A DNA stretch of 64,000 nucleotides from Microbulbifer sp. Q7 (GTDB lineage Bacteria > Pseudomonadota > Gammaproteobacteria > Pseudomonadales > Cellvibrionaceae): assembly GCF_001639145.1 (NCBI RefSeq), contig NZ_LROY01000002.1:1520501-1584500 (forward strand). Reading direction: 5' to 3'. Below, piece by piece: positions 11,321 to 49,786 of the stretch. Each line of letters starts with the position of its first letter. The first letter of the stretch is position 1. The notes beneath the pieces are model-generated. The model did not search any database, was not told the DNA's origin, and saw only the letters and a program-made list of their open reading frames with translations. Made by a program: the position numbers and the translations under genes.

Positions 11321-11408
11321 ACCAGCTGACTACATCGGCTGATCAGATCGTTACCGAATACTGGTCAGCCTACACTTGAGGCTGATTTACTCGCGGACTT
11401 TACGCGAA

Positions 11409-11522
11409 GGTTGCGATGCCGGGGGCAGCTTTGTGAGACCTTCTCCGCCATGGATGGCGGTGCAGAGCCCCCATGGATGGGTTAACGGCGTGTCTCACAA
11501 AGCTGCCCCCGGTTTCGCAACC
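11409..11522. repeat. Palindromic structured element 1 (leader of kbl)
   Basis: Two 31-base arms (11409-11439 and 11492-11522) are inverted repeats: 21 bp perfect next to the loop, a 2x2 mismatch, then 8 bp perfect (GGTTGCGA / TCGCAACC). The 52-base interior holds two small hairpins with the same TGGA loop, CCGCCA-TGGA-TGGCGG (11445-11460) and CCCA-TGGA-TGGG (11470-11481). It ends 61 bases before the kbl start. It shares plan and inner motifs with element 2 at 49339-49446. Confidence 0.85.
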
Positions 11523-11583
11523 GCCACGGAGTTCGGATAGAAGCCCTTCTGCCAAAAGCACTACAGGAGCCAATAACAGCGCC

Positions 11584-49211: not shown

Positions 49212-49338
49212 GGAGTAACCGTCCCGGGTTAGAAATAGTTGAGCCGGTAATCTTAACCTAAGAAGGCGGTTTTGACAGACCGAAAGCTCCTAGGCACGAA
49301 TCATGAAGCTTCGTAAATAGCTCGGTGGCGGCACCGCT

Positions 49339-49446
49339 ACCGATAGCAGTTTGCGGGACACGAGCTAGGCGCCCCCCGATAACCCATCCCTGGGGGCTCG
49401 GACGCGGCCGTCCAGGCCGCGTACGGTCCCGCAAACTGCTATCGGT
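49339..49446. repeat. Palindromic structured element 2
   Basis: Perfect 21-bp arms (49339-49359 and 49426-49446) around a 66-base interior. Inner hairpins: CCCA-TCCC-TGGG (49383-49394) and ACGCGGCC-GTCCA-GGCCGCGT (49402-49422). The inner arm end (CAGTTTGCGGGACACG) resembles element 1 read on the minus strand (CAGCTTTGTGAGACACG), and the CCCATCCxTGGGGGCTC hairpin is shared with it. Confidence 0.85.
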
Positions 49447-49555
49447 ATCGGCACCTTCATATTTAGCATCAAGACTTCGCTCCACCAACGAGTAGATGAA
49501 GAGAATAAAACTGATTACTTTGAAAGCTACGAAGCGCAGAGTTTAAAGCGAAGGG

Positions 49556-49675
49556 GGAGCGGCGGGGATCCTTTTTCAGAAGCGTCGGCGACAAGGACGT
49601 CGCCGACGCAGCCTACAGGGATGTATTCATGGGGGGGCGCCTAGCTCGGCTCTAAAAATGGATCCCCGGCGCTCC
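49556..49675. repeat. Palindromic structured element 3
   Basis: Arms 49556-49580 and 49651-49675 are inverted repeats with three mismatches over 25 bases, including an inner GGATCC pair. The interior contains an 11-bp perfect hairpin, GCGTCGGCGAC (49582-49592) with GTCGCCGACGC (49599-49609), and the block GGGGGGCGCCTAGCTCG (49632-49648), which is the exact reverse complement of 49361-49377 in element 2. It lies in opposite orientation to element 2. Confidence 0.83.
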
Positions 49676-49691
49676 GCCGCCCAGACAGACA

Positions 49692-49727
49692 CTACGTAGC
49701 TAAGAACAAGATGGTGCTACGTAGCTA
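49692..49727. repeat. 11-bp direct repeat pair CTACGTAGCTA
   Basis: Exact copies at 49692-49702 and 49717-49727, 25 bases apart start to start, each with a palindromic CTACGTAG core. Between element 3 and the purF terminator. Confidence 0.75.
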
Positions 49728-49758
49728 GATTGGTAGCGGCGCTTTCGCATTGGACCAC

Positions 49759-49786
49759 AAAAAATGGCCCACCATCGGGCGGGCCA
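49759..49786 (-). terminator. Rho-independent terminator of purF
   Basis: TGGCCCACC (49765-49773), loop ATCG, GGCGGGCCA (49778-49786): a 9-bp stem with one G-U pair. On the minus strand a T-run follows (plus-strand A-run 49759-49764). 30 bases beyond the purF stop. Confidence 0.88.

Follow-up and report, generated by a model that had tools for sequence, protein, structure and literature searches.

Small RNAs of the Csr/Rsm type are encoded by one to a few genes per genome. The high-affinity site of RsmE is an ANGGAX hexaloop seated directly on a stem (PMC4005645), and for the CsrA protein of Escherichia coli a SELEX consensus, RUACARGGAUGU, as well as the form (A/U)CANGGANG(U/A), is given in the literature (PMC6692469). 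RsmU (sRX061) of Xanthomonas campestris is an RsmA-binding 3′UTR RNA that starts 25 bp past a stop codon (PMC7694677). Among dispersed extragenic palindromes, REPs are 20-40 bp long and carry GTAG or CGTC tags, of which GTAG is tied to RAYTs and CGTC is apparently without a dedicated transposase; long terminal-repeat families adjoining RAYT genes are already described in the same source (PMC3733652).

The window analysed here, a stretch of 64,000 nucleotides from Microbulbifer sp. Q7, contains two oppositely oriented palindromic elements between metZ and purF. This article describes the family to which they belong, a description of which was not found in the literature searched, mostly without subscription papers.

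The metZ-purF elements and their genomic family

Across the 3.95 Mb of the genome, the family is found at 115 separate places, taking together two lists of 114 each that differ by one place. Both were obtained with R1, a covariance model built from 47 of 54 aligned copies, three of 57 extracted copies having been dropped beforehand; one list is a genome search counted after removal of antisense shadows and one partial match, and the other is a rerun of R1 on 68 fetched loci. Plain DNA searches with the two window elements gave 27 and 41 matches. The features of these elements and of a third copy in the window are as follows.

49324..49461, minus strand as sense (CAGGGATG): element copy 1, type II, with optional insert, between metZ and purF (R1 match G000:C2:1569824-1569961:-, 104.1 bits)
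49426..49451, minus: 5′ arm of the copy 1 outer stem, an inverted repeat 96% complementary to 49334-49359
49334..49359, minus: 3′ arm of the copy 1 outer stem, pairing with 49426-49451
49410..49415, minus: copy 1 hairpin B apex CUGGAC, which has GGA and is not a canonical ANGGAX
49386..49391, minus: copy 1 hairpin A hexaloop AGGGAU, with a C-G closing pair
49361..49377, minus: copy 1 optional insert (the 17-base block discussed below)
49547..49684, plus strand as sense: element copy 2, type I, with optional insert (R1 match G000:C2:1570047-1570184:+, 102.3 bits)
49553-49580 and 49651-49678, plus: copy 2 inverted-repeat arms, 86% complementary
49593..49598, plus: copy 2 hairpin B hexaloop AAGGAC, with a C-G closing pair
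49617..49622, plus: copy 2 hairpin A hexaloop AGGGAU, within CUACAGGGAUGU
49632..49648, plus: copy 2 optional insert
11403..11528, plus: third copy, type II, without insert, loops AUGGAU and AUGGAU (R1 match G000:C2:1531903-1532028:+, 110.5 bits)

Two inverted-repeat elements are therefore present as the initial annotation had proposed, with arms 96% (copy 1) and 86% (copy 2) complementary and both recovered by the covariance model. They are not chance palindromes, because they belong to a family of 115 genomic places and because of their fold z-scores, which range from -5.8 to -13.8 in the six copies computed and from -5.8 to -9.5 in the two window copies. The 17-base identity is exact (49361-49377 is the reverse complement of 49632-49648, the block occurring twice in the window), but the block is not the conserved interior that it had been taken for: it is optional, an insert with exact sequence in 14 of the 114 copies and related sequence in 20. 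An ATCCCTG phrase described as lying beside a hairpin is present, but is itself the hairpin loop, reading CAGGGAT on the strand that matters. The outer arms of the window copies (type II and type I), called unrelated, are not so across the family. The two copies fall in two subfamilies, with 65 type I and 49 type II copies among 114 by a simple motif rule, and the arms of these have both common and variable positions.

Two further features of the gap were read by eye. A small palindrome, CTACGTAG(CTA) x2, lies at 49691-49728 between copy 2 and purF, and a terminator-like hairpin with a T run is found on the minus strand at 49760-49786, directly after purF and upstream of both elements.

The family fold is a long outer stem leading to a three-way junction with two hairpins, each tipped by GGA. 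The unit is about 125 nt long, with an outer stem of about 30 bp, and its sense strand reads in the order GCGAAGG, an arm of about 28, hairpin B, then hairpin A bearing a TTYAC bulge, the second arm, and CCGCCAC. Pairing is kept in 96.5% of cells of a 114-row alignment, and 36 of 39 pairs (28 of 30 in the outer stem) show change on both sides; the covariation score is 0.753, as against 0.209 in shuffled and 0.07-0.12 in slid alignments, and 0 of 500 shuffles reach the observed value. This alignment was fitted to R1 and hence leans towards the model, and an alignment-free count from both ends agrees with it. Other genomic copies and arms that covary between copies, the absence of either of which the initial annotation had named as refuting its proposal, were thus both found. 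Two outer-stem positions are irregular in a fixed manner, z=13 (U·G 40, A·G 27) and z=14 (G·U 43). Across 29 listed loci the outer stems vary between genera and are nearly always self-complementary around a constant core, L257 being an exception by eye.

Copies also occur as pairs. All 24 two-copy clusters in the genome are inverted, and 21 of them have one layout, in which the 5′ (GAAGG) ends of the sense strands face each other. The same facing layout was seen in 15 of 19 pairs in the near relative G042, in 33 of 40 neighbouring pairs from 75 of 80 named-genome loci (four Bacillus- or Klebsiella-titled records and L398 omitted), and in 21 of 24 in a third set. In Xanthomonas, two loci (L394:2400-3460 and L364:760-1580) hold arrays of alternating minus and plus copies, that of L394 comprising three pairs, repeated every 303 bp or so.

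Five of the 114 copies are lengthened to 155-180 nt by inserts, and that of L186 adds two further AUGGAU loops. Core inserts of about 50 nt were observed in L136:2001-2179, L406:4394-4451 and the G042 locus L350; they are near-identical in L136 and L350, both from Microbulbifer, and by eye also in L406, from a gammaproteobacterial MAG. On one strand these inserts read as two GGA-loop hairpins; apparently, a smaller module of GGA hairpins sits inside the larger one.

Strand asymmetry and GGA-tipped hairpins

With the two fixed irregular positions excluded, the outer stems contain 94 G·U and 19 A·C wobbles (p=4e-13 if cells are independent, related copies being treated as independent); copy by copy, G·U is in excess in 60 of 114, A·C in 7, and 47 are tied. 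Since equal mutation on both strands predicts equal numbers of the two, one strand, that of CAGGGATG, is maintained as a single-stranded fold. This strand asymmetry and the twin GGA hairpins are additions to the initial annotation. The CAGGGATG strand lies on the G-rich strand of its locus in 45 of 114 copies, a weak leading-strand bias (p=0.03, uncorrected).

Of the 114 copies, 111 carry ANGGAX hexaloops seated on three or more base pairs (two in 60, three in one, one in 50), such that three copies have no canonical hexaloop and 53 have fewer than two; the controls gave 1 of 114 on the opposite strand and 30 of 2280 among shuffled cores. In these loops N is G, T or A and X is T or C. The stems of hairpin B are very different between copies and its GGA apex is constant, and in 37 core sequences from four families the invariant columns include the A, the GG and the A of the hairpin A ANGGA, with N free. 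All of the 42 loci from wider searches (41 from other genomes, several of them of the same genus, and L264 of this genome, the better strand of each being scored) have at least one hexaloop, with two in 36, three in one and one in five. Loop-less relatives may be missed in both sets, since the models used to find the copies include the loops and so favour copies that have them. Apart from its first base, the CUACAGGGAUGU of copy 2 matches the E. coli CsrA SELEX consensus.

The genome has one csrA match (C2:339189-339344). In the class sample, csrA was found in 313 of 369 genomes, comprising 66 of 71 element-bearing and 247 of 298 element-free genomes, a weak association (p=0.04) in which the overlap was compared by eye from two lists with the own genome included. 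Four of the five element-bearing genomes without a csrA match are 67-88% complete; the fifth, G606, is 98% complete (270 contigs), and its elements without a csrA match call for caution in a CsrA reading.

Gene context, distribution and turnover

Copies of the element, in either orientation, are found a short way past stop codons. Genes were called with a home-made codon-score caller; 4 of the 114 copies overlap a gene so called, and the 88 occupied gaps are tandem in 71 cases, convergent in 11 and divergent in 6, compared with 22, 3 and 15 of the 40 gaps at the same loci that are unoccupied and 150 bp or longer. Orientation is random among single copies in tandem gaps (sense in 32 of 57, p=0.43). 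Copies antisense to the upstream gene have a hexaloop in 48 of 49 cases and a G·U to A·C ratio of 42 to 11, the figures for sense copies being 63 of 65 and 52 to 8. A function confined to sense copies in 3′UTRs is supported neither by the orientation counts nor by constraint, which is equal on antisense copies. That the latter are as well kept argues against a pure 3′UTR function and for transcripts of their own or a fold that takes part in dispersal. Read-through RNA alone would not explain them, although, with turnover this quick, recently misplaced copies would not yet have decayed. Words such as ACGAAGT or TACGAAG flank some of the 114 copies on the same strand on both sides, 32 at -19/-18 and 17 at +9 to +11, and could either belong to the unit itself or be a target repeat.

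R1 matches were obtained in 27 of 38 genomes of a genus and order sample (own included). Matches per Microbulbifer genome range from none (G007, 80% complete) or one (G003, G004) up to at least 93, counts that include antisense shadows; as R1 derives from the own genome, diverged copies elsewhere may escape it. Element-poor Microbulbifer species have common copies with similar flanks (L107, L108, L109, L111 and L113), perhaps an old fixed copy, and the gene adjoining the copy at L111 is presumably TldD-like. A core model, R2, matched 155 of 390 genomes and 68 of 142 genera in a sample of the order, and 71 of 369 genomes and 63 of 272 genera in one of the class, own genome included in each. Among the matches listed for an exact core pattern among named genomes are Microbulbifer, Marinobacter, Xanthomonas, Stenotrophomonas, Pseudomonas, Halopseudomonas, Alcanivorax, Haliea, Lysobacter, Shewanella and others. 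Core matches in records of Bacillus subtilis and of Klebsiella pneumoniae (MAG) at L377, L396, L403 and L413 probably come from contaminating contigs.

The sites themselves turn over between genomes. In the purF-metZ region of 30 Microbulbifer genomes there are 21 R1 matches, 8 of them antisense shadows; copies lie in the gap at seven loci (L222-L225, L230, L232 and L250), with a match at the locus edge in L234, a copy cut by the contig end in L226 and remnants in some others. As to the empty-site comparison suggested earlier for this gap, many species have gaps without a copy, but their flanks are too diverged for the junctions to be read. In G042 (median flank identity 96.4%), a copy is present in the matched gap at 73 of 91 clusters. 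The 52 single-copy sites fall into two halves, 26 differing at 0-9 positions (20 of these at 0-4) and 26 at 14-38, with none between; three of the former also differ by an insert of 16-56 nt, and an alternative cut-off (95% identity, 90% coverage) gives 20 near-identical sites and 32 that are not. Where the element differs strongly (26 sites), the 50 bases closest to it in the flanks differ as well, at 12-35 positions. Of the 51 sites at which G042 has exactly one copy, 3 show that copy in the opposite orientation, and L174/L347 shows an apparent inverted core.

At 18 sites with at most three mismatches, a class chosen for low divergence, there are 0.8 differences per element and 3.5% in the 500-bp flanks. 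Little-diverged sites provide 615 stem pairs, of which 596 show no change and 5 a change on both sides; in the other 14 one side is altered, giving another standard pair in 8 cases and a mismatch in 6. Change at a single site is mostly wholesale replacement and rarely stepwise compensation. Mobility or fast turnover follows from presence and absence and from replacement at shared sites, and both halves of the earlier suggestion, that the structure is selected or that a folded unit is mobile, are supported, the former by covariation.

Competing readings and relation to known systems

Searches for known relatives gave little. At the Rfam gathering score there was no match in the window and only a tRNA in six named copy-bearing loci, and the Csr/Rsm families of Rfam gave none up to E=1 in 14 loci. 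Three sub-threshold matches to Ysr224 (E 0.03-0.16, on the strand opposite CAGGGATG) were judged to be chance. The foot of the element has neither a GTAG nor a CGTC tag and is mostly GCGAAGG...CCGCCAC. Identity as a known Rsm sRNA or as a REP fails the tests made.

The initial annotation had remarked on the absence of a transposase, and none linked to the elements was found in this genome. Active Y1_Tnp members read PNHxH, the catalytic HUH stretch. The single Y1_Tnp match of this genome (29 bits, cut-off 23) is a RAYT-like gene, L194:6247-7200 (G000:C1, approximately 804.2-805.2 kb), that reads PNMIQ, has no R1 match within 45 kb, and lies in what we take to be a T6SS cluster; from its sequence, it is perhaps a domesticated, catalytically dead transposase. 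A RAYT link was rejected for this genome, the sole match being without the HUH residues and distant from the copies. Y1_Tnp matches of similar size and score recur across many Microbulbifer genomes. An autonomous form, in which two copies would enclose a gene, was also discarded: the two genes in L372 look host-like and L408 has no clear gene, L406 having been assessed by reading only. One 111-base query from another genus had no match in plasmids or phages, and one exact 24-base core pattern had none in viral contigs.

In our best reading, to which we give an even chance, these are old, widespread, mobile and strand-specific non-coding gammaproteobacterial elements whose RNA binds CsrA. The hairpin core would be a binding platform for a CsrA/RsmA dimer; RNA from a copy would bind and titrate CsrA, or tether the transcript that carries it to CsrA, and the copies would move or be exchanged between intergenic sites. 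That the family works like an Rsm sRNA is the likeliest single reading, equally apt to be right or wrong. RsmU, as an RsmA-binding RNA of 3′UTR origin, is a precedent. Several points count against this reading: conservation of the TTYAC bulge and of GGCGTG goes beyond what CsrA requires; a terminator-like hairpin lies ahead of the elements in the purF gap; single copies are oriented at random to genes, and antisense ones are equally well kept; 53 of the 114 copies fall short of two canonical hexaloops; five element-bearing genomes gave no csrA match; and at little-diverged sites one-sided stem changes (14) exceed two-sided ones (5).

Rather unlikely, in our judgement, is that the fold serves DNA mobility, the element being a REP- or IS200-like single-stranded DNA unit whose GGA loops are read by a trans-acting transposase or recombinase, with RNA binding incidental. 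Such a unit would account for random orientation to genes and equally constrained antisense copies, for site turnover, empty sites within the genus and match numbers from none or one to at least 93 per genome, and for the conserved inverted pairing here (21/24), in G042 (15/19) and elsewhere (33/40 and 21/24). Recognition of some REPs requires stem irregularities, and the fixed irregularity at z=13-14 is REP-like in this respect. Long terminal-repeat families beside RAYT genes are in print (PMC3733652). Its difficulties are the lack of a linked transposase or of a plausibly active Y1_Tnp gene in this genome, the presence of Y1 genes also in element-poor genomes (G003, G004, G009 and G010), the untagged foot, and the lack of plasmid, phage or viral-contig matches to one query each. 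Constant loops combined with free stems and a free N would also be odd for a DNA enzyme, and fit the needs of CsrA. A part in mRNA-end protection or processing, or in bidirectional termination, as for REP-like 3′-end elements, is improbable: placement just past stop codons in either direction and scarcity in divergent gaps (6/88, against 15/40 unoccupied) suit it, but it needs neither the strand-specific wobble nor two conserved GGA loops, and no T run follows the stem among the copies listed. We consider it very improbable that the palindromes merely maintain themselves, hairpin-templated repair copying arm to arm and exchange between copies spreading arms with no selected function. Joint changes of both arm sides, in the purF gap relative to G042 and in L167/L354 (four double changes), would be expected on that account, as would the three opposite orientations among 51 shared sites and the inverted core of L174/L347. 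It leaves unexplained the bias of G·U over A·C and the loops conserved across the class, is strained by strand asymmetry, and does not explain elements that differ by just 0-4 mismatches at 20 of the 52 shared sites or the excess of one-sided (14) over two-sided (5) changes at little-diverged sites.

Returning to CsrA binding, we propose tentatively, thinking it somewhat more probably wrong than right, that a mobile class with no known transposase and with twin putative CsrA hairpins, seeded by the hundreds across gammaproteobacteria, constitutes a distributed pool of CsrA sites. If so, a pool of about 115 copies with one to two canonical sites each could buffer or rewire the Csr network across dozens of transcripts, its outer stems diversifying by genus with the core retained, and a global regulator would have a large, fast-turning set of sites that is absent from Rfam. 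Selection on one strand of a palindromic repeat would then be explained, and the great difference in pool size within one genus, from one match (G003, G004) to about 115 copies here, would offer a natural sponge-dosage series for the Csr network. Even without CsrA, a family that occurs in 68 of the order's 142 sampled genera, and whose loops stay constant as its stems compensate, merits a name and a mechanism.

Known systems each have a part of these properties. MITEs are likewise small, non-coding, multi-copy and intergenic with variable occupancy, but have conserved terminal repeats, whereas the outer arms here vary between copies. REP, REPIN and BIME sequences are similarly dispersed extragenic palindromes of many copies, with an imperfect stem and inverted pairs; the present elements differ in their length of about 125 nt, three-way junction and two conserved hairpins, and in the lack of a tag and of a cognate RAYT in this genome. 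RsmU has GGA motifs, binds RsmA and lies in a 3′UTR just past a stop codon, but is a single locus reported only from Xanthomonas (PMC7694677), and it is by this description that it is set apart here. With CsrB/C and RsmX/Y/Z the family has in common several ANGGA hairpins on one RNA strand, an arrangement suiting a CsrA dimer, and it is distinguished from these Csr/Rsm sRNAs by its approximately 115 dispersed copies, each with a long closing stem.
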